From Selenomonadaceae bacterium (GTDB lineage Bacteria > Bacillota > Negativicutes > Selenomonadales > Selenomonadaceae), in NCBI GenBank assembly GCA_017634675.1, contig JAGBMX010000134.1:1-64000 (forward strand): DNA of 64,000 bases, written 5' to 3'. Under the pieces are notes generated by a model. The model saw only the letters and a program-made list of their open reading frames with translations. It searched no databases and had not been told where the DNA came from. Below are positions 6,823 through 54,173 of this stretch, piece after piece. A program made the translations under genes and the position numbers. The stretch's first letter is position 1, and every line of letters begins with the position of its first letter.

Positions 6823-9321
6823 TTGCAGATTTTGTATGATATCGCGGCGGTTGTGTTGTTTTTCCCCGTGCTTTTAATGTTTTTAGTGCGCGCGACCAGA
6901 GAAAGAGGTTTTGTTGAAAGAATACGACAGAGTATGTTTGGCATTTTTCCGGAGCACGCTTTGGACTCGGTTGAAAAGAAGAATTGTATATGGGTTCATG
7001 CGGCATCCGTTGGGGAAGTTGTGGCTACAAGTCCTCTTATTAAGGAGTTTAGGCGGGAATTTCCCAAAAGTCCGATTTTGGTGTCTGTGGTAACGGCGAG
7101 CGGTTATGAAATGGCGAACCGTATAATAAAAGATGCGGACAGCATTATATATTATCCCCTCGATTTTCCGTGGATCGCAGGACGCGTGCTTCGTCGTATT
7201 CGTCCCAGGGTTTTTTTACCTGTGGAAACGGAACTTTGGCCGAATTTCTTAAAAGCCGCAAGGGAACTTCGCATACCCGTTATGATGGTAAACGGGCGCA
7301 TAAGCGACAAGAGCGTAAAACGGTATCATCATTTACGGAGTATGCTCGACGATATGATTGGAACCATTAAAAAGTTTGCAATGCAGTCGCCGATTGACGC
7401 CGAATATATAAAGCGATTGGGAGCGCCTGAGGAACTTGTCACTATAACGGGCAATACTAAGTTTGATCAGACTTATACGGACGTTTCATCGGAAGAAAAG
7501 GAAACGATTTTAGGAGAACTTGGATTTTCTAAAGATGATAAGATTTTTCTTGCGGGAAGTACCCATCGCGGAGAAGAAGAATATGTGTTAAAAGCTTTTA
7601 AAAAGGTTCGGGAGAAACATCCTACGGCTAAACTTCTGATTGCGCCGAGAGAACTTTTGCGCACTATGGAAGTTACCCATATAGTAAAAAGCGCTGGGTT
7701 TGTCGTTGCGACTCGTACAAAATTGCAAAAAAAACACGATACGAAACACGATGTCGTGGTTTTGGATACTATAGGCGAATTGGGAAAAATTTACAGTATC
7801 GGCGATGTTATCTATGTAGGCGGAAGTTTGATTTCACACGGCGGACATAATATATTAGAACCGGCGGCGCATGGTAAAGCTATCGTGGTCGGGCATAATA
7901 TGTTCAATTTCAAAGATACCCACGCCCTTTTTACGAAAAGGAACGCCTGTATAACGGTTGCGGATAGCGATGAACTTTCAAAGGAAGTAGCGAGACTTTT
8001 TGACGACGAAGCTGAAAAAAACCGTATGGAAGCCGAGACTCTCGCTATTGTCAACGAAAACAAGGGGGCGGCGCGAAAATCCGCCGTATTGCTAAAGGAA
8101 ACTTTGGAGTGTTACGAAGCGAAAGAACGGTTGCTTCATATAAAAACTACTCAAAAAATTGAAAACCTCCAGACTTATTTTATAAACCTTGTCCACAGTA
8201 AAAACGTGGAAGGCGTCGGCAACAATGTTCTGATTGCGTTCTTATATTGTTTTTCTCTTATTTACAGGATGTTGGTAAATTTAAAGTTAGGGGTTTATAA
8301 GATAGGGCTGTTCCATAAGGAAAGCTTGTCCTGTTTCGTAATAAGTCTCGGAAACGTCACCGTTGGCGGCACGGGGAAAACCCCTACGGCGCAATGTTTG
8401 GCGAGAGAAATTCGCGATATGGGATATAGAGTGGTTATCTTAAACCGCGGGTATAGAGCGAAATGGCACGGAGAAGTCGGTGTTGTGTCCGATGGCGAAA
8501 CCCTTCACATGGATGCAAAAGAAGCCGGCGACGAGGCTTTTATGCTTGCAAAGCATTTGCCCAATGTTCCCGTGTTGATAGGCGCTGAACGAGCCATTAC
8601 GGGACGGTACGCCATAGAGCATTTCGGAGCGGAAGTTGCGATTTTAGACGACGGTTATCAACATTGGCAACTAAACCGAGATATTGACATATTGCTTGTG
8701 GATGCGGTAAATGTTTTCGGTAACGGGCATATTTTGCCCCGCGGAACTTTAAGGGAGCCTATTTCTCATATAAGCCGAGCAGACGTTTGTCTTATGACAA
8801 AGGTGGATCAGGCGGCGGAAGGTTCGATTGAATACATCAGAGATACCGTTCATAAACACAACGATAAGGCTTTGATAGTGGAAAGCATTCATCAGCCCAA
8901 GACTTTTATACCTATGGAAAGATGGTTCGATCATATAGGGGAAGTGGGTATACCGGTATCGGAAATAAAGGGACGGCGTATTATGGCAGTGTCGGCCATA
9001 GGAAATCCCGCCTCTTTTGAACAGACGCTTTCGGACTTGGGCGCGGTTATCGTTGAGAGTTTGCGTTATCCAGATCATCACGAATACACCGTAAAAGAAA
9101 TGGAAAGCGTCTTTAGACAAGCTGACAGCGAGGATGCGGAAGCCATTGTCATAACCGAAAAAGATGCGGTGAAATTCCCGCCGGAAGTTTTGGGCGGCGA
9201 AATTAAAATTCCGGTTTATGTTATTTCCGTTGAAGTAACTTTCCAAGAGGGAGCTAAAGAATTTAGGGAACTTTTGAAATCAAGGATAGAAGAAGCGGTG
9301 TCTAAAAGGGAGAAAGGATGA
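6823..9321 (+). CDS. waaA-lpxK: Fused Kdo transferase (WaaA/KdtA) and lipid A 4'-kinase (LpxK)
   Basis: One 832-aa frame joins two consecutive lipid A enzymes. Residues 1 to about 430 are a GT30 Kdo transferase, with an N-terminal hydrophobic anchor, the catalytic-type glutamate E65 in ASVGE, and GGSLISHGGHNILEPA near its end. After a roughly 40-50 residue linker, the rest is LpxK, with an extended Walker A GNVTVGGTGKTP at 510-521 and the DDGYQHW motif. LpxK phosphorylates the disaccharide at 4', then WaaA adds Kdo. The start is a TTG at 6823, as the only suitable codon after aaaggggaga at 6809-6818. The frame is uninterrupted across the junction. Confidence 0.93.
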   Translation: MQILYDIAAVVLFFPVLLMFLVRATRERGFVERIRQSMFGIFPEHALDSVEKKNCIWVHAASVGEVVATSPLIKEFRREFPKSPILVSVVTASGYEMANRIIKDADSIIYYPLDFPWIAGRVLRRIRPRVFLPVETELWPNFLKAARELRIPVMMVNGRISDKSVKRYHHLRSMLDDMIGTIKKFAMQSPIDAEYIKRLGAPEELVTITGNTKFDQTYTDVSSEEKETILGELGFSKDDKIFLAGSTHRGEEEYVLKAFKKVREKHPTAKLLIAPRELLRTMEVTHIVKSAGFVVATRTKLQKKHDTKHDVVVLDTIGELGKIYSIGDVIYVGGSLISHGGHNILEPAAHGKAIVVGHNMFNFKDTHALFTKRNACITVADSDELSKEVARLFDDEAEKNRMEAETLAIVNENKGAARKSAVLLKETLECYEAKERLLHIKTTQKIENLQTYFINLVHSKNVEGVGNNVLIAFLYCFSLIYRMLVNLKLGVYKIGLFHKESLSCFVISLGNVTVGGTGKTPTAQCLAREIRDMGYRVVILNRGYRAKWHGEVGVVSDGETLHMDAKEAGDEAFMLAKHLPNVPVLIGAERAITGRYAIEHFGAEVAILDDGYQHWQLNRDIDILLVDAVNVFGNGHILPRGTLREPISHISRADVCLMTKVDQAAEGSIEYIRDTVHKHNDKALIVESIHQPKTFIPMERWFDHIGEVGIPVSEIKGRRIMAVSAIGNPASFEQTLSDLGAVIVESLRYPDHHEYTVKEMESVFRQADSEDAEAIVITEKDAVKFPPEVLGGEIKIPVYVISVEVTFQEGAKEFRELLKSRIEEAVSKREKG

Positions 9322-31334: not shown

Positions 31335-31943
31335 ATGAATATACTTTTTGCGGAAACTTTAAAAAAAATTCGAATGGATAAAGGACTTTCCCAACAGAAT
31401 TTGGCGGAGCTAATGTATGTCACCCGTTCAACCGTCGCCAGATGGGAAAACGGCAGCAGACTGCCGGACGCTATGATGATTTTTCGGCTTTCAAAATGTC
31501 TTGACGTTGATCTCAACACATTACTTTCAGCAGCGGCGGAAAGCGATGATGCGCCAAACGTCATTATGGTGGACGACAGAAAAATGTTTCTCTCGGGCGC
31601 ATTGCCAATTTTGGAAGCAATAATGCCAAATGCTATAATAACTGGCTTTACAAAACCGTCGGAAGCTTTGGAATACGCAAAAGCGAACAGAATTGCGCTT
31701 GCCTTTTTGGATATTGAACTTGGAAAAATGAACGGGCTTGATTTATGCGGCGAACTTATCACAATTAATCCCCGCACAAACGTGGTATATCTTACCGCGT
31801 ACAGCGAGTACGCTTTTGATGCGTGGAGCACTGGGGCTTGCGGTTTTCTGTTAAAACCGATTACGGAAGAGAGCGTAAGAACGCAGCTTAAGAACCTACG
31901 TTATCCATTTTTTTCCGGGAGGGGGATGGATGTGGATGATTGA
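31335..31943 (+). CDS. XRE-REC response regulator (DNA-binding domain first)
   Basis: A 202-aa protein with a Cro/C1-type helix-turn-helix at residues 5-62 (KGLSQQNLAELMYVTRSTVA) and a receiver domain at about 75-190. The receiver has acidic residues D80-D81, phospho-acceptor D126 in FLDIELGKMNG, T154 and K174. Response regulators normally have the receiver first; here the order is reversed. It overlaps a LytS-type kinase gene by 14 nt, its evident partner. The REC is of the LytTR-regulator type (ends FDAWSTGACGFLLKPI). Targets are unknown; the divergent RND operon is one candidate. Confidence 0.85.
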   Translation: MNILFAETLKKIRMDKGLSQQNLAELMYVTRSTVARWENGSRLPDAMMIFRLSKCLDVDLNTLLSAAAESDDAPNVIMVDDRKMFLSGALPILEAIMPNAIITGFTKPSEALEYAKANRIALAFLDIELGKMNGLDLCGELITINPRTNVVYLTAYSEYAFDAWSTGACGFLLKPITEESVRTQLKNLRYPFFSGRGMDVDD

Positions 31944-44373: not shown

Positions 44374-45720
44374 ATGATTTTAAAAAAGAGTTTAGTCCTC
44401 TTAATATTTTTACTTTTTTATTCGACGATTTCTTTTGCTGCGCCTGTCACCATGCGAGCCGTGGACGCAGACGTTCGCGCCCTTTTGTCTTCTGTGGCTC
44501 ATGTGGGAAACTTAAGCGTTGTAATCGATCAAACCGTAAACGGAAAAGTTACGGCGAATATAAACGGTTTGGAGCCTAAAGACGCTTTATACATGATAGC
44601 GAAAGCCAGAGGGTTTACCGTAGAAAATATAGGCGGCACATTTATAATAACAGACGTTGGTCGCGCCGTAAATTTTCGGCAAATTTATACTTTTCCCGTG
44701 CAACATGCGGAACTTGAAACGATAAAAACCGCATTGCAGCTCGCCTTAAAAAATTCCGTTGCAAAATCTGTCGCGTCTTCCAATCAAACAAAAACTAAAG
44801 ATAAAGCGGCGGACGCAACAAAAATCACCTCTGCGAACTTTGAAACCGAAAATCGGGTAATGACGGATGTGGCTCATGGCGCAATTATATTTTACGGTAC
44901 CCAAAGCGAAGCCGAAAAAGCCCGCTCTCTTATAGCTTCTTTAGACACTCCGCCGAAGCAGATTTCTCTCATGGCAAAAGTTGTGGCTATTCAAAAAGAC
45001 GCATCAAAGAATTTGGGGGTTGAATGGCGGTGGTCTGCGCTGCCGCAATATCCTGAAAGTCGCATAACGTACGAATACGAATATGCAGACGATGACAGCA
45101 CCCGTAGGCGACGCACGTCAACCCGCGAATATGAGCGCAGTTTCGAAGGATCCGACAATATCCCGGGCATTATTCGATTCGGTAAGGGACCCGAAGGGTA
45201 TCCTTATGAATTTTATTATGAAGCCAAAATAAACGCTTTAATAACAGATGGCAAGGCGAAAATTTTATCTCAGCCGAATATAACCACTCTTCAAGGCAAG
45301 GAAGCCGTTATAAACATAGGAGGCTCCGTGCCGGTGCCCACCGTATCCACAACAAATTCAACGGTCACTACCTCCATTCAATATCGTAACGCAGGCATAA
45401 TATTGAGATACACGCCAAGAGCCAGCAATGACGGTTATATAACAGCGGACGTACATACTGAAGTCAGCTCGCCGTTATATGTAGAATCACTGAAAGCATA
45501 CCGTTTTCAGGAACGAAGCGCAGACACCACGGTGCGCCTTAGGAACAATGAAACCATGGTAATAGGCGGTCTTATAGGAGAGGAGGAGTCAAAGAGTTTT
45601 TCTAAGGTGCCTTTTTTGGGGGATATTCCGATTTTAGGTGCGCTGTTTAAAAACAACAAACGAACGAAGTCCGAATCGGAGCTTATGATTTTTTTAACCG
45701 CAAAGGTGCTAGATGAGTAA
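44374..45720 (+). CDS. Secretin (PilQ/GspD family)
   Basis: A 448-aa outer-membrane secretin with a signal peptide (about 1-22), an STN/N0 domain (about 25-95), an N-domain of NolW type (about 105-195) and a beta-rich secretin domain (about 270-447) ending in the hallmark VPFLGDIPILGALFK. It is shorter than most PilQ and GspD proteins. It should form a multimeric gate for pilus or protein export. Apart from the PilP-like gene, the remaining machine (ATPase, platform protein, pilins) is not in the window. Confidence 0.92.
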   Translation: MILKKSLVLLIFLLFYSTISFAAPVTMRAVDADVRALLSSVAHVGNLSVVIDQTVNGKVTANINGLEPKDALYMIAKARGFTVENIGGTFIITDVGRAVNFRQIYTFPVQHAELETIKTALQLALKNSVAKSVASSNQTKTKDKAADATKITSANFETENRVMTDVAHGAIIFYGTQSEAEKARSLIASLDTPPKQISLMAKVVAIQKDASKNLGVEWRWSALPQYPESRITYEYEYADDDSTRRRRTSTREYERSFEGSDNIPGIIRFGKGPEGYPYEFYYEAKINALITDGKAKILSQPNITTLQGKEAVINIGGSVPVPTVSTTNSTVTTSIQYRNAGIILRYTPRASNDGYITADVHTEVSSPLYVESLKAYRFQERSADTTVRLRNNETMVIGGLIGEEESKSFSKVPFLGDIPILGALFKNNKRTKSESELMIFLTAKVLDE

Positions 45721-48160: not shown

Positions 48161-48940
48161 ATGGCAACTTCACTCCTTGAAAAAACTAGAAAGATTAACA
48201 GACTCCTCCAGAGATCCGAGAACGTGGAATACGACGATATTTCGCGGGTTTTGAGCGCGGTTTTAGAAGCTAACGTTTATATTACCGATAAAAAAGGCGA
48301 AATCTCCGGACACGCTCTTGTAGATGATTTTGAATGCGATTTAATGCTAGACAAGGTCATAAACCAGAAAATATTCCCCAAGCCATATGTAAATTGGCTG
48401 ATGCGACACGACGAAACTAACGCCAACCTTCATTCCAAAAGCGGAAAGTGCGTATATGACGATGGCGTGGCGTGTATGTTTAAGAAAAAAAATACCACAA
48501 TCGTTCCCATATACGGAGTTGGCGAGCGGATAGGGACGCTTATAGTCGCCAAATACGATTCTCTGTTTAACGACGACGATGTTCTGCTTGCCGAATACGG
48601 CGCGACTGTTGTTGGGATGGAGATGCTTAGGGATAGGTCGCAAAAAATAGAGACGGAAGCGAGAAAAAAAGCTACGGTGCAGATTGCGTTTTCTAATCTT
48701 TCGTATTCCGAACTAAAAGCGGTAAAAAAGATATTCAAGAAACTTAAGGGATTTGAGGGTCTGTTGGTGGCGTCTAAAATAGCGGACGAAGCTAAAATCA
48801 CCCGATCGGTTATAGTGAATGCGTTGAGAAAATTTGAATCCGCCGGGGTTATTGAAGCAAGATCTTTAGGTATGAAGGGAACTTTTATAAAGGTTACGAA
48901 TGAGTACCTTTTAGATGAAATCAAAAAAATAGAGCCGTAA
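48161..48940 (+). CDS. codY: GTP-sensing global regulator CodY
   Basis: A 259-aa regulator of nutrient-limitation responses in Firmicutes. It has an N-terminal GAF domain (about 1-155) for branched-chain amino acids and a C-terminal winged helix (about 185-250) with the highly conserved VASKIADEAKITRSVIVNAL recognition region and SLGMKGTFIKV wing. CodY with isoleucine and GTP normally represses biosynthetic and transport genes. Here it is monocistronic with a good promoter and terminator, instead of following xerC-hslV-hslU as in many Bacilli. Confidence 0.96.
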   Translation: MATSLLEKTRKINRLLQRSENVEYDDISRVLSAVLEANVYITDKKGEISGHALVDDFECDLMLDKVINQKIFPKPYVNWLMRHDETNANLHSKSGKCVYDDGVACMFKKKNTTIVPIYGVGERIGTLIVAKYDSLFNDDDVLLAEYGATVVGMEMLRDRSQKIETEARKKATVQIAFSNLSYSELKAVKKIFKKLKGFEGLLVASKIADEAKITRSVIVNALRKFESAGVIEARSLGMKGTFIKVTNEYLLDEIKKIEP

Positions 48941-48943
48941 GAA

Positions 48944-48976
48944 TAAAAAGGCTGGGCATAACGCTCGGCCTTTTTA
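48944..48976 (+). terminator. Rho-independent terminator after codY
   Basis: The stem aaaaaggctgggc with gctcggccttttt (two G-U wobbles) around an ataac loop ends in a T run, four bases after the codY stop. Confidence 0.9.
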
Positions 48977-49052
48977 TTTTATTTTTTTAATCTCATATAT
49001 TTTTAATCTTTGAGTGTTATTCTAAAAAAAAGATATTTGTGGAGAGATATGT

Positions 49053-49928
49053 ATGTCGAAAAAAATTTTTTTATTGTTGTTTACGTTTTTTGTTTTTACC
49101 GGGCATGCTCTTGCGGAGGAAGTGACTGTCGAAGGGTACGGAAACGACAGAGAAGCCGCTTTAAGCGATGCGAGGAGAATAGCTGTAGAACGCGTTGTCG
49201 GCGCTTATGTGGAAGGAACAACGGTTGTAGAGGCAATGGCGGTTGAACTAGATGAAATTTATACGAGGGCGGATGGATTTTCAAAAGTCGTTGGCGTGTT
49301 GGAAGAAAATTTTTCTGGGAGCGTTTACAGGGTTAAAGCTGTAATTGATGTAGATACCAATCCTCAAAACGATTTTATGAGCAATTTGCAGATGATTGCA
49401 AGGTTGAGAGATCCTAAAATTGCCGTTATTGCCCTTAGAAACGGCGATTATGGTTTTCATGAGGTAAATGCGGAAACAATCATAAACGAAAGCCTGATAA
49501 ATTTGGGGTTTACCAATGTGCTTAACGTATCTCAAGTAACTTCAATGTATGATTCAAAAACCCTGCAAAATATTTATCATGGAGTTCAAGTTGCGGACTT
49601 AAGTTCAAACTACGGCGCAGATATGGTTATTATAGGTCATTCAACGGTTAAAGCCGAAAAGATAAAAATTCCCGATTATAAAGGAGGTTATAAGGAAGTA
49701 GCGTTAAATTCCGGTGTTGCAAGTTTTGCGATGAAGATTGTAAATCCGTATAACGGACGAATTTTGGACACTTTTTTAGCGGAAGGCAAAGCGATGGGAA
49801 TAGATAGAGCAGAAGCGGAGCGGGAGAGTTTGCGGGCTGCTTCTTTAAACGCAGCGAAAATGATTGAAGAAAAATTAAAGAAGCTAAGCGCAAGAACTTT
49901 GACGACTACTTCGGTGAAGAATAAATGA
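49053..49928 (+). CDS. Exported FlgT-like protein
   Basis: A 291-aa protein with a signal peptide (about 1-21, ending HALAEE). Residues 22-110 resemble the FlgT N-domain (EVTVEGYGNDREAALSDARR, then AVERVVGAYV). The remainder has a CsgG/ABD-like pattern: KIAVIALRN strand, YGADMVIIGHS, and NPYNGRILDTF near the end. In Vibrio, FlgT is part of the flagellar H-ring beside the outer membrane. It is first in a six-gene run of exported proteins. The family call is by eye and should be confirmed by structure comparison. Confidence 0.6.
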   Translation: MSKKIFLLLFTFFVFTGHALAEEVTVEGYGNDREAALSDARRIAVERVVGAYVEGTTVVEAMAVELDEIYTRADGFSKVVGVLEENFSGSVYRVKAVIDVDTNPQNDFMSNLQMIARLRDPKIAVIALRNGDYGFHEVNAETIINESLINLGFTNVLNVSQVTSMYDSKTLQNIYHGVQVADLSSNYGADMVIIGHSTVKAEKIKIPDYKGGYKEVALNSGVASFAMKIVNPYNGRILDTFLAEGKAMGIDRAEAERESLRAASLNAAKMIEEKLKKLSARTLTTTSVKNK

Positions 49929-49953
49929 TAATGAGATTAAGGAGGTGGATTTT

Positions 49954-50496
49954 ATGAGAGCCGTACGTTTTGCGTTAATAGCGATGGTTTTGATGATGTC
50001 ATGCGCGGCTGGATACGCAAATCCACGTGTGGCAGTGCTTCCTCCCGCCAACAAAAATCCGCTTCCGACAGGACTTGATGCGACGGTTGATTTTTCATCG
50101 TTGTTGGATATTGTAACAGACGCTATGGGTAATCCTAAGCTCGGATTCGAACCGTATGAAAGAGGAGAATTAGAGGCATTAATAACCGAGCAGCATTTGA
50201 GCCATACAGCATTGTTCGATCAAAATACGGCGGCGAAATTTGGAAAACTAATCGGAGCGGAGTATGTGATGATAACGAATATAACGGGGCTCAGTAAACA
50301 TGAAGGTAAGATTGTGGTGAGAATGTACGGGCGAGTTGTTGACGTTGAAACGGGTAGAATCGCATGGACAGGTCGAGGGTTGGGAATAGCGAGGGATTTA
50401 TCGGAGGCCTTTGAACGAGCCGCAGACGATATGGTTACGGGAAGAAAAGGATTGTTAGAGAGAATGAAAGGGTTGGAGCGGTATGAGAAAGGTTAA
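49954..50496 (+). CDS. Exported CsgG/FlgO-like protein
   Basis: A 180-aa protein with a signal peptide; MMSC at residues 13-16 could be a lipobox. The mature part follows the CsgG-type pattern: RVAVLPP strand, GFEPYERGELEALITEQHLS, a FGKLIGAEYVMITNITG strand-helix-strand, and VVDVETGRIAWTG. This fold is shared by CsgG, LpoB and FlgO. ATG 49954 has aaggaggtg upstream; GTG 49945 overlaps that site. It overlaps the following gene by 14 nt. Whether it forms a pore, as CsgG does, cannot be told; the transmembrane-strand insertions of CsgG are not evident. Confidence 0.65.
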   Translation: MRAVRFALIAMVLMMSCAAGYANPRVAVLPPANKNPLPTGLDATVDFSSLLDIVTDAMGNPKLGFEPYERGELEALITEQHLSHTALFDQNTAAKFGKLIGAEYVMITNITGLSKHEGKIVVRMYGRVVDVETGRIAWTGRGLGIARDLSEAFERAADDMVTGRKGLLERMKGLERYEKG

Positions 50497-51091
50497 AATT
50501 TGCATATTCTTAGCCATTTTTTTTATATCTGCGCCAATAGCAGTTGAGGCTGTGGAAACTATAGGTATTGCCGGATGTTTTTCTCGCGAAAACGTGACAA
50601 ACATGCCAAAAGAGCGGGGGAAACTTTATTCGATAGTTAATATATGCCTGATGGATGGCATTGAATCCATTCCCGGAGTAATGCCGGTGGATTTAAGCGA
50701 AGATGCTAAACAGGCTAGATTGGATGAGGCTTATCTGGGAATTGCTTTTAAAAATCTTGAAAGCGGGAATGTTTCGGAAATTGTAAAGGAATTTGATACA
50801 AAGCCCGACTATATTGTTTACGCTTATTTAACAGGACTTACCGTGACTCATAGGGAGTCGATAAACGGGGCTAATATGGCGGTGCGGGCGGATATCAGCG
50901 CAAGAATTTTAAATACCGATACGGGAAGGGTTGTTTTCGTTGCAACCGGTACGGGAGATGCGGATTCTCATCAATCTTCCGGCGGAGACGATATTTACAT
51001 TGGTAAGGATAAAGTGCCTATGGATACTTTACATAACGCTATAGATAAGGCTTGCGAGAAAATTCAACGTAAGATGCGTGAAAACATTTAG
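50483..51091 (+). CDS. Exported protein with divergent CsgG-like pattern
   Basis: A 202-aa protein with a signal peptide (about 1-23). It is not recognisable by family name, but PDYIVYAYLTGLTV followed by ARILNTDTGRVVFVATGTG repeats the strand pattern seen in the upstream CsgG-like product, suggesting a diverged paralogue. The C-terminal helix (HNAIDKACEKIQRKM) ends the domain. Its start lies inside the preceding gene, indicating co-translation. Confidence 0.55.
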   Translation: MRKVKICIFLAIFFISAPIAVEAVETIGIAGCFSRENVTNMPKERGKLYSIVNICLMDGIESIPGVMPVDLSEDAKQARLDEAYLGIAFKNLESGNVSEIVKEFDTKPDYIVYAYLTGLTVTHRESINGANMAVRADISARILNTDTGRVVFVATGTGDADSHQSSGGDDIYIGKDKVPMDTLHNAIDKACEKIQRKMRENI

Positions 51092-51111
51092 AGGCAATGA
51101 GAGGTAATGAG

Positions 51112-51936
51112 ATGAGAATTTACGGTATCGGCGCGATTTTATGTTGCGTGTTGGAAATTGCCATGTTATTCGTAAATTGCAGCATATCAGAAGCGGCTTT
51201 ATTCAATAAATCAAAGACCGGACCCGCTATTTTGTTGGCAGACGTTGGTTGCTACGGATACAATAAATTGCAAGACGGGTTTTTGGAAACTTTTTGGGAG
51301 GTTATGGCGGAAAAAGTTCAATCCGATAAGGATTTCAATTGCAATTTAGTTACTCCCGGCGCAGAAGATGCGAAGGCGTTTAAAGTCGCGCATATCGACG
51401 CTATAGTACGAGGTCCGTTGTATGAGAGAGAAAACGTCGCTTCGGAAGTCGTCAGATACGGCGACGAGGTTTTCGGAAGAGAATATTTTTGGAACGAAAA
51501 AAAACTTGCCATTCGAAAAGAGAAGCGGGGTCGACCGTATTTTTTGGGAGAAGATCAAATTATTACCCTGCGGGAATTGGCGAAAAAATACGACGCAGAA
51601 TATTTTTTGTTCTGCAACTTGAGAAATGTTGATACCAAACTTAAAAAATCTATCTTTAATGTCGATACAAACTATGAGGAACGCGCAAAGGAAATTAGAG
51701 TTGAAACGGAGTACTACTTAATAGACGCAAAAGAAGGACGAGTTTACGAGGGGCAGAACATCACAGGCAAAACTTCGCAGATTTTAAACATAGTCATAGG
51801 AGAATACGGTAAAGGCGCAAGTGTTCAGCAATTGATGCAGGTGATGTTCGAGGAGCAATCAAAAAGAATTGTTGAGGACATAAAAAAGAAAGGATTAAAA
51901 ACCTTACGAAACGAGGAAATTAGTTCAGAGGATTGA
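51112..51936 (+). CDS. Exported hypothetical protein, divergent CsgG-like pattern
   Basis: A 274-aa protein with an N-terminal hydrophobic segment (about 3-27) that may be a signal peptide; cysteines near 11-12 and 22 do not form a clean lipobox. Later parts include LAKKYDAEYFLFCNLRNVD and YYLIDAKEGRVYEGQ, again the ABD-like strand and TGRV-type turn found in its neighbours. A middle charged region (about 85-140) is specific. ATG 51112 is preferred to ATG 51097 because gagagg fits it better. Function is unknown. Confidence 0.55.
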   Translation: MRIYGIGAILCCVLEIAMLFVNCSISEAALFNKSKTGPAILLADVGCYGYNKLQDGFLETFWEVMAEKVQSDKDFNCNLVTPGAEDAKAFKVAHIDAIVRGPLYERENVASEVVRYGDEVFGREYFWNEKKLAIRKEKRGRPYFLGEDQIITLRELAKKYDAEYFLFCNLRNVDTKLKKSIFNVDTNYEERAKEIRVETEYYLIDAKEGRVYEGQNITGKTSQILNIVIGEYGKGASVQQLMQVMFEEQSKRIVEDIKKKGLKTLRNEEISSED

Positions 51937-52017
51937 TATTGAAACAAAATCGGACATTAGCGCGCTGATAAGTCCGTAGGGTGCGCGCTGTTTGGCAGCG
52001 CCACGATAAAAGGAAGT

Positions 52018-53271
52018 ATGAATATGAAGAAAGTAGTGGCGTTGGTTTTGCTGTTGGCGATGCCTGTGGTGGCAATGGCGCATGGGCAGCTTTGGTACGA
52101 TAAGAAATCTTATGTGGCTCGTTACAAGAAAGTTATAGTATATCCGTTAGGATGGATAAATTCGGATAAGCTTTTTTACGATGATGATGAAAGTAGCAAT
52201 GCTTACAAAATGAACGACTATTTGGATAAAAAGCTTGCTAAAAGGTTTAAGACTGTTTCTCTGGGGCGGATTTTGAGGGAAAATAAAGACGTAAGAACCG
52301 ATGAAGAGCGGTATAAGCCGTTGTATGAAGCTTTTAAGGACGAAGAAAGCAGGTCTAAGCAAATTCGGGAAATTGACGCAGGTGCCAACGGATATTTAAT
52401 GCCATATTTTACGGAAAACAGAGACGAGCCGCATTTATCGCCTGCGGCCTATGTAAATGTAAGAATGACTTCTTACACGGAAGAAACGGGAGGTCCTAAT
52501 GGAAATAAGATTTACGATAGGCAAAATTGGACGGAAAGGGTGCTTATCCCGCAGATGCAACGAAATTTGCATCATATGGGATTGGAATTTATACTCTATG
52601 ACGAAAACGGAAAAAAAGCGTTGACATTTAAGAACGAAGCCCACGAATACGACGATAGCAGAATGAGGCGTACGGAATTTAGTATGTATAAGGATTTGGT
52701 GGACGAATTCGAAAGCGACTTAAAAGAGATGGTGAAAAAGCGCGACGCAGAGGATTATGAGGAGCGTACGGGAAAGAAGATAGGGTTTAAAATTGTAACC
52801 ATGCCGGAAAATGTGAGTAGCAACGATACTCTTGCAAAATCTATATATTATACCGTAAAGAGCAGAGCCGAAAGAATCGGAAAAGCCAGAGTCTTATACG
52901 GAAATGACGACTTAGCGGATTACTTCGTTGAAGGAAATATTGCTAAATACGCCTTAGAAAGAGAATGGAGACCGCCTAGGGCTTCGACATACACTTCTTT
53001 AAAATCTCACAGAACAAGGAAGTGGAGGGATAGACGCGGTAAGGAACATACCATGCACATCAGACGATACGAAACAAAGGTGTCAACTTATCCCGGAGAA
53101 TGGGTATATACCGCTAAAGTATATGGGAGATTTAACTTGGTAGACGCAAGAACGGGGAAGGTGATAGTATCGCATGAAGCGATGGAGGAGGACGATAAAA
53201 CCGGCGACGCGCTGATACATTTGATGGATAATTTTTATTCAAAGGTAAAACGAGCTGTTTATGATGATTAA
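52018..53271 (+). CDS. Exported hypothetical protein of 417 aa
   Basis: The protein has a signal peptide (about 1-22, ending VAMAHG) and no family I recognise. It is strongly charged, with an acidic first half and a basic patch around residues 320-350 (HRTRKWRDRRGKEHTMH). It shows the local pattern ANGYLMPYFTEN early and FNLVDARTGKVIVSHEA near the end, resembling the other members of this gene run. A gap of 81 bp separates it from the previous gene, but no terminator is evident, so it probably belongs to the same operon. Confidence 0.55.
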   Translation: MNMKKVVALVLLLAMPVVAMAHGQLWYDKKSYVARYKKVIVYPLGWINSDKLFYDDDESSNAYKMNDYLDKKLAKRFKTVSLGRILRENKDVRTDEERYKPLYEAFKDEESRSKQIREIDAGANGYLMPYFTENRDEPHLSPAAYVNVRMTSYTEETGGPNGNKIYDRQNWTERVLIPQMQRNLHHMGLEFILYDENGKKALTFKNEAHEYDDSRMRRTEFSMYKDLVDEFESDLKEMVKKRDAEDYEERTGKKIGFKIVTMPENVSSNDTLAKSIYYTVKSRAERIGKARVLYGNDDLADYFVEGNIAKYALEREWRPPRASTYTSLKSHRTRKWRDRRGKEHTMHIRRYETKVSTYPGEWVYTAKVYGRFNLVDARTGKVIVSHEAMEEDDKTGDALIHLMDNFYSKVKRAVYDD

Positions 53272-53290
53272 GTACAAGGAGGAATAGTTT

Positions 53291-54136
53291 ATGAAGAAAA
53301 AATTTTTATTGTTTTCGTTATGTTTAGCGGTAGTTTTAATGCTCTCTTCAAGCGCATTTGCCGCAAACGGCGCCGATTGGGAGAACGAGAAGATAATTGC
53401 GACGGGTATGGGTGTTGCGCCGGCGAATGTAAGAAATCAAGAGCAAGCTCGAATGATGGCTCGTCGCGCCGCTATGGTGGACGCTTATCGTCAACTGGCG
53501 GAATTTGCGCAAGGCATAAATATTGACGCTGAAACTACGGTGAAAAACATGGTGGCGGTCAACGATACCGTCAATACTAAGGTGAGCGCCGTGATAAAAG
53601 GCGCGCGGATAGTGAACGAACGATCCCTTGCCGGCGGCGGTTACGAAGTTACGATGGAAGTTCCGCTCTACGGCGTTAAAAATTCGTTGGCGGCCGCTGT
53701 TATAACTCCACCTAAAGTTAGAGAAAGTTTTCCGTCTCCCATTCCCGACGTAACGCCTTCGGTGCCTATGGGAAAAGTTGCGGCCGATGCGCCTCCCGGC
53801 AGAGCTATCGGCGGATATACGGGTCTTATCGTTGATTGCAGAGGGCTGGATTTAAGCCCCGTTATGAGTCCTGTTATTAAAAATGAGAACGGTGCGCCTA
53901 TTTATGGTTACAGAAACCTTGACATTGACAGAGTTATAGCTGAAGGCATGGCTTCTTACACATATGACATAGACAGTGCGCCCCGCGCCGGAAACAATCC
54001 CTTAATCGTGCGCGCCATTCGGCTTGACAACCATAACGCCAATCCCGTAGTTTCTCTTGCGGATGCTAATCGCATACTAATCGAAAACGGCGCTACTCAT
54101 TTCTTAGACAGCATTAAAGTTGTTTTTGTAAGATAA
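53291..54136 (+). CDS. Exported LPP20/FlgP-like protein
   Basis: A 281-aa protein with a signal peptide (about 1-24, ending AFAANG). The N-terminal half has the LPP20-type helix QARMMARRAAMVDAYRQLAE and strands (GYEVTMEVPLYG). The second half contains GYTGLIVDCRGLDLSPVMSP and ends ATHFLDSIKVVF. LPP20 family proteins include Vibrio FlgP, an outer-membrane flagellar accessory. It closes the six-gene run with a clear terminator 9 bp after its stop. The FlgT-like, CsgG/FlgO-like and FlgP-like set in one operon is the main argument for a shared function. Confidence 0.65.
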   Translation: MKKKFLLFSLCLAVVLMLSSSAFAANGADWENEKIIATGMGVAPANVRNQEQARMMARRAAMVDAYRQLAEFAQGINIDAETTVKNMVAVNDTVNTKVSAVIKGARIVNERSLAGGGYEVTMEVPLYGVKNSLAAAVITPPKVRESFPSPIPDVTPSVPMGKVAADAPPGRAIGGYTGLIVDCRGLDLSPVMSPVIKNENGAPIYGYRNLDIDRVIAEGMASYTYDIDSAPRAGNNPLIVRAIRLDNHNANPVVSLADANRILIENGATHFLDSIKVVFVR

Positions 54137-54144
54137 ATCAAGAT

Positions 54145-54173
54145 AGAGCGATGTTTTGCGTCGCTCTTTTTTT
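54145..54173 (+). terminator. Rho-independent terminator of the exported-protein operon
   Basis: The stem agagcga with tcgctct (54145-54151, 54161-54167) is followed by a T run to 54173, directly after the LPP20-like gene. Confidence 0.88.

Follow-up and report, generated by a model that had tools for sequence, protein, structure and literature searches.

A six-gene operon of exported CsgG-, FlgT- and FlgP-type proteins in Selenomonadaceae and its possible role as a flagellum-independent periplasmic assembly

What might a set of exported proteins with the domains of flagellar outer rings do at a locus where no flagellar gene is found? The question is raised by six genes, here designated A to F, at positions 49053-54136 of the forward strand of the stretch analysed (the window), which comprises 64,000 nucleotides (positions 1 to 64,000 of contig JAGBMX010000134.1) from the genome of a Selenomonadaceae bacterium (assembly GCA_017634675.1). 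The initial annotation described these genes as an operon of CsgG/FlgO-, FlgT- and LPP20/FlgP-like proteins and proposed that they might specify a shared periplasmic or outer-membrane assembly. The six products were found to contain six domains of the CsgG/PelC/FlgT-middle type (a single one in each of A to D, and two in E) and two of the FlgP/FlgT-N type (in A and F). The genes are inherited as a block, and this block is retained in relatives that lack flagella. An assembly of several different soluble periplasmic proteins, forming a ring- or disc-shaped scaffold where outer membrane and peptidoglycan meet, independently of flagella, is a reading to which we give about an even chance.

Layout of the operon

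The six open reading frames (ORFs) exactly span the interval first annotated and are closely packed, with spacings of 16 (A-B), -14 (B-C), 5 (C-D), 81 (D-E) and 19 (E-F) nucleotides. The genes and the two hairpins that flank them are as follows.

48940..48980, forward strand: terminator-like hairpin of the intrinsic type, an 18-pair stem followed by a T-rich tail, parting codY from the six-gene unit
49053..49928, forward strand: gene A, 291 amino acids, exported, with an FlgT_N/LPP20-type domain at about 49119-49364 and, C-terminal to it, a CsgG/FlgT-middle-type domain at about 49404-49904
49945..50496, forward strand: gene B, 183 amino acids, exported CsgG/LpoB/FlgO-type domain in which the two CsgG membrane hairpins are missing
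50483..51091, forward strand: gene C, 202 amino acids, diverged CsgG-type paralogue
51097..51936, forward strand: gene D, 279 amino acids, diverged CsgG/FlgT-middle-type paralogue bearing a helical insertion
52018..53271, forward strand: gene E, 417 amino acids, a tandem pair of CsgG/PelC-type domains whose beta-hairpins are long (N-terminal about 52087-52761, C-terminal about 52762-53268)
53291..54136, forward strand: gene F, 281 amino acids, FlgP/LPP20-type domain (about 53396-53665) and C-terminal Tp0624-like domain (about 53792-54133)
54145..54167, forward strand: terminator-like hairpin of the intrinsic type, a 10-pair stem followed by a T-run, ending the unit ahead of serS

The upstream neighbour of the operon is codY (48161-48940) and the downstream neighbour is serS. 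As the hairpins lie directly 3' of codY and of F, genes A to F form one bounded unit; terminator-like sites are no more numerous in this region than in shuffled sequences, and it is their positions that carry the weight. Among the annotated neighbours in the window there is no flagellar gene, in agreement with the initial annotation, and no beta-barrel partner, synthase, fibre subunit, penicillin-binding protein (PBP) or pel-like gene adjoins the operon.

Domain structure of the six proteins

The first gene had been considered FlgT-like and the last LPP20/FlgP-like, and both assignments are supported. Protein A scores 16.8 bits against Pfam FlgT_N, under the cut-off of 28.8, and therefore resembles this domain without being filed as a member; a fusion of A and B in a related genome (locus L045) reaches 28.6 bits against the same cut-off. 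The profile of A matches the FlgP-type chain 9hmf_C at 8.3e-8, and the second half of A aligns with the profile of B at 1.3e-21 (hhalign). A thus joins an FlgT_N-like and an FlgT-middle-type domain in one exported protein, which is the architecture of FlgT. Protein F belongs to Pfam LPP20 (PF02169; 31.3 bits, cut-off 25.9), and its profile matches 9hmf_C at 1.7e-18 and a chain named as Vibrio FlgP at 1.4e-6. Its C-terminal domain matches 5jir_B at 2e-9, a chain deposited as an OmpA-OmpF porin, which we take to be Treponema Tp0624. Chain 9hmf_C is deposited as a putative lipoprotein; from its sequence, it is presumably FlgP of Campylobacter jejuni. The first domain is common to A and F (1.9e-8, hhalign). 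FlgP is known to form concentric rings (the basal disc) and FlgT outer-membrane-associated rings, and within this family ring formation is accompanied by an insert that separates the helix from the second strand (PMC12222027). The segment that follows the long helix of 9hmf_C is aligned by F with one gap and by A with none; by our own interpretation of that study, the segment retained in A and F may be the ring-forming insert.

Protein B exceeds the Pfam cut-offs for both CsgG (PF03783; 37.0 bits, cut-off 20.8) and LpoB (34.9 bits, cut-off 22.3), and the profile of its orthologues matches CsgG at 1.4e-5 and LpoB at 5.4e-4 in the PDB, which bears out the view of the second gene as CsgG/FlgO-like. 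A search of solved structures with the single sequence of B gave no match, and the family profile was required. Against the NCBIfam LpoB equivalog TIGR02722, B scores 33.2, far under the cut-off of 110.55. As judged from the alignment, window B lacks the two membrane beta-hairpins found in each subunit of the CsgG pore: 18 and 14 residues stand at the hairpin positions, likewise in its closest relatives, whereas some orthologues have 30 and 35. Protein C aligns with B at 5.6e-24 over 196 columns (hhalign) and scores 14.2 bits against Pfam CsgG, which is sub-threshold. The only relevant PDB row for its profile is FlgT, at E 0.19-0.28; matches to WD-repeat proteins (FBXW7, about 6e-5) were dismissed as coincidence of repeat motifs.

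Pfam gives no match for D and only sub-threshold matches for E, and AlphaFold2 models of both were compared with known structures by Foldseek and VIA. Each model has a mean predicted local distance difference test score (pLDDT) of 84.9. The model of D matches FlgT (Foldseek 1.6e-5 to 2.8e-5; VIA Z 12.4), CsgG (Z 10.4) and PelC (Z 10.3), with CT253 also among the closest folds. D aligns with B at 1.8e-7 (hhalign); a second alignment of D gives stronger values, as it holds D-C fusion proteins. The C-terminal half of E is closest to PelC (Z 13.1, root-mean-square deviation (rmsd) 2.3, 116 aligned) and also matches CsgG and FlgT, while the two halves of E align with each other at E 2e-5 and a moderate probability of 53%. 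A membrane barrel built from the long hairpins of E was rejected, as about 26-34% of their residues are charged. The repeat noticed initially in the three intermediate proteins, an AD/AEY strand followed by a D-x-x-TGRV turn, is real and represents the signature of the CsgG-type domain. From the profile alignments and the models of D and E, it is concluded that C, D and E are diverged paralogues of one fold, as had been suspected; the unrelated folds that would have spoken against this were not encountered.

Export signals and location

Judged by eye, each of the six proteins starts with basic residues and continues with a hydrophobic segment and a site resembling A-x-A, consistent with the claim that all six are exported. 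No orthologue in the A, B, E and F families gave a hit in a strict lipobox search (0 of 11 orthologues for B). In the C family the pattern occurs in 2 of 11 orthologues, including the window copy, and in both it merely falls on the first strand of the mature domain. In the D family it occurs in 2 of 10, the window copy not being among them. Lol genes are missing from Negativicutes (PMC5491611), and LolA was absent from all 13 genomes searched here, both of which fit soluble rather than lipidated versions. The products are thus probably soluble periplasmic forms of proteins that are mostly lipidated elsewhere, as far as their sequences indicate. With no conserved lipobox, no CsgG membrane hairpin in B and charged hairpins in E, "periplasmic" is a safer description than "outer-membrane": of the two locations first proposed for the assembly, the periplasmic one is favoured.

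Conservation of the operon and its relation to flagella

The co-occurrence of full-length D and E is almost confined to one family; those of its members that have names are Selenomonadaceae metagenome-assembled genomes (MAGs), mainly from rumen; a search for named organisms likewise gave five close relatives, all of them Selenomonadaceae-type MAGs and mainly from rumen. D is present in 17 of the 62 genomes of the family and adjoins E in 14 of these, the three exceptions belonging to one genus; gaps in MAGs can hide genes in such counts. The usual gene order is A-B-D-C-E, with F present or not, and the window differs in having C ahead of D. The N domain of A is fused to B in two genomes (L045, L049), and D is fused to C in three (L103-L105) and probably also at L045. 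Inheritance as a block and the gene fusions argue for a joint function. The operon is accordingly conserved, as initially claimed, and the break-up that would have contradicted this was not seen. A literature search, to which subscription papers were mostly inaccessible, turned up no description of a comparable gene set in Negativicutes and no paper combining "LPP20" and "Negativicutes".

The host genome is flagellated, with six flagellin matches and FlgI. Among the genomes of the family set, 48 are good, and co-occurrence was counted in these: FlgI is missing from 4 of the 13 genomes with D and from 3 of the 35 without it, which gives no positive association (Fisher p 0.07, in the opposite direction). 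The four are G010, G039 and G057, all from genus g11, and G045, which is very fragmented. The three g11 genomes are 99-100% complete and have neither FlgI nor flagellin, yet hold A-B-D-C-E, so that the operon does not show the occurrence with flagellar genes expected of FlgT. Most flagellated relatives are without the block. By co-occurrence, a role of the operon as a flagellar accessory is disfavoured. The flagellar comparison, which had been raised merely as such, holds for the domains and not for a link with flagella. In the same family, Mitsuokella multacida has been reported to have lost its flagellar cluster (PMC5491611).

In several relatives codY lies directly upstream of flgB/flgC/fliE/fliF-type genes, named here by sequence recognition; the loci compared were the window and L095, L100, L101 and L102. 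In Bacillus, codY likewise precedes flagellar genes. Within the genus of the window, codY is found elsewhere than before flagellar genes, and its adjacency to the operon is not kept even there. The linkage to codY as a sign of flagellar control was dismissed: the operon sits elsewhere in other genomes, and the adjacency was taken as local chance.

A class-wide trio and paralogous clusters

Of 120 genomes of the class, 46 have F-type proteins, and A- and B-type genes are often their neighbours. The trio so formed occurs in at least seven genera of several families, in flagellated and non-flagellated Negativicutes alike. The trio or F is present in genomes G084, G105, G127, G146, G158 and G007, which lack FlgI; the trio itself is found in G084 and G105, from other families, and in G007, from the same family as the window. 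The B-type members of the trio score CsgG, and at L154 also FlgO and FlgT_C. The six-gene operon is best seen, on these sequence comparisons, as a Selenomonadaceae-specific enlarged version of a class-wide FlgO/FlgT/FlgP-like trio.

Trio loci were located on contig C82 of the same genome (L036:7624-10607) and at L141, L142, L143, L144, L154 and L155. A longer paralogous cluster on contig C8 of the same genome (L035:4563-14484) has A-, B-, C- and F-type genes and adds domains of the SH3, ricin-lectin and dockerin types as well as a match to NlpC/P60 below threshold. Longer clusters are also present at L140, where a dockerin is fused to a CsgG domain, at L145, which adds ricin-lectin and dockerin, and at L153. 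These longer clusters are possibly linked to the cell wall or surface. Lone F-like and A-like paralogues lie off the clusters in the same genome, on contigs C154 (L156:11255-12160) and C36 (L157:6206-7240).

Proposed assembly and alternative explanations

In the proposed periplasmic scaffold, products A to F would bind one another. The FlgP-type domains of A and F may polymerise into a ring or disc, on which the CsgG-type domains would form stacked collars or adaptors, and the whole would face the outer membrane or the peptidoglycan. Its job would likely be mechanical or organising, possibly around another envelope machine or in regulating wall growth. CsgG is a 9-mer. PelC forms a dodecameric ring (PMC12141448), and the fact that known relatives such as PelC and FlgP form rings was counted in favour of a ring. 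Several observations weigh against the proposal. The N-terminal half of E aligns weakly with the other families, its best structural rows being LptE (Z about 8, rmsd 5-6), and F is absent beside E at L046, L050 and L051, so that it may be exchangeable or supplied from another locus. CsgG-type domains are also found in monomeric or non-ring proteins such as LpoB and TolB, and a ring is therefore not forced; a common fold by itself reveals no function.

An LpoB-like regulator of peptidoglycan synthesis, in which periplasmic proteins of this fold would touch PBPs, is unlikely. The LpoB matches of B above the Pfam cut-off and in the PDB point in this direction, as does the presence of SH3, dockerin, ricin-lectin and sub-threshold NlpC/P60 in the paralogous cluster of the same genome. 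B is however far below the LpoB equivalog cut-off, matches to CsgG and FlgT are equally strong, no PBP gene is adjacent, and we know of no Lpo system with two FlgP-type proteins. Rather improbable is also a CsgG- or PelC-like gate for the secretion or export of protein or polysaccharide. The best match of the C-terminal half of E is PelC, B, D and E all match CsgG, and some orthologues of B retain insertions of 30 and 35 residues at the hairpin positions; a pore is nevertheless unlikely given the short hairpin positions of window B and its closest relatives and the charged hairpins of E, and the genes for a barrel partner, synthase or fibre subunit do not adjoin the operon.

There is little to recommend a flagellar outer-ring accessory, equivalent to a T-/H-ring or basal disc and encoded apart from the flagellar genes, although the best-known relatives of the operon proteins are FlgT, FlgP and FlgO, the host carries flagellins and FlgI, and codY precedes flgB-flgC-fliE-fliF-type genes in several relatives. 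The association of D with FlgI is not positive, the near-complete g11 genomes keep the block without flagella, most flagellated relatives do without it, and the adjacency to codY is not conserved. Least probable, to the point of being nearly discounted, is that E or another member represents a missing LptE-like partner in lipopolysaccharide (LPS) transport. LptE rows were obtained for the N-terminal half of E and for D (Z about 9), but LptE shares the general fold and these alignments have rmsd 4-7. As LPS transport is expected to be universal and D is present in only 17 of 62 genomes, an LptE identity for E and D was dismissed on distribution.

A more far-reaching form of the scaffold proposal, which we put forward tentatively and consider unlikely, is that concentric or stacked FlgP-type and CsgG-type rings make up a machine not described before, which would work in the envelope of diderm Firmicutes independently of flagella. 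The proteobacterial FlgO/FlgT/FlgP motor rings would then represent one flagellar specialisation of a wider envelope system, which would persist here as a system of its own. FlgO, FlgT and FlgP are usually viewed as parts of the motor that boost torque or stabilise the flagellum. The same domains occurring as a multi-gene set, kept without flagella and expanded in one family, suggest a separate envelope role for ring-forming modules. The operon would also exemplify how outer-membrane proteins that normally carry a lipid can exist in soluble form in Negativicutes, which lack Lol.

Other genes of the window

Three further loci of the window are recorded here. An ORF of 832 amino acids at 6823-9321 fuses a Kdo transferase (N-terminal Glycos_transf_N) to LpxK. 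A small protein encoded at 31335-31943 has an Xre-type helix-turn-helix followed by a response-regulator receiver domain, and its gene adjoins that of a probable histidine kinase. A stand-alone secretin gene (Secretin, 160 bits) lies at 44374-45720, between an upstream ORF of 193 amino acids without Pfam match and a downstream M48 protease gene.

Comparison with known systems

The closest parallels in domain content are the outer rings of the sodium-driven motors of Vibrio, formed by FlgO, FlgT and FlgP (T-/H-ring; LPHT ring 8z5n, FlgT 3w1e), and the FlgP basal disc of Campylobacter, which contain the same two domain types. A shows the order FlgT-N followed by FlgT-middle, the FlgP domain of F keeps the segment after the helix, and matches to FlgO and FlgT_C occur among the trio proteins of other members of the class. 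Unlike these rings, the operon is linked to flagella neither in the genome nor in its occurrence, carries five genes of the CsgG type where the rings have one or two, shows no conserved lipobox, and its F protein carries an extra Tp0624-like domain. The curli pore CsgG shares the domain of B and the fold of C, D and E; window B differs in lacking the residues of the two hairpins and a lipobox, and no curli-type neighbours were noticed. PelC, a dodecameric lipoprotein ring of Pel export, is the best structural match of the C-terminal half of E, but in E the domain is present twice and its hairpins are longer, and neither a PelB barrel nor pel genes adjoin it. LpoB, the activator of PBP1b, resembles B at the level of the Pfam cut-off, whereas B falls far short of the equivalog, is not a lipoprotein and is part of a multi-gene set. 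Finally, the HP1454-HP1456 (LPP20) cluster of Helicobacter also places exported LPP20-type proteins, reported to contact FlgP (PMC11756786), in one operon. It differs in its link to the flagellar motor, and to our knowledge has no series of CsgG-type paralogues.

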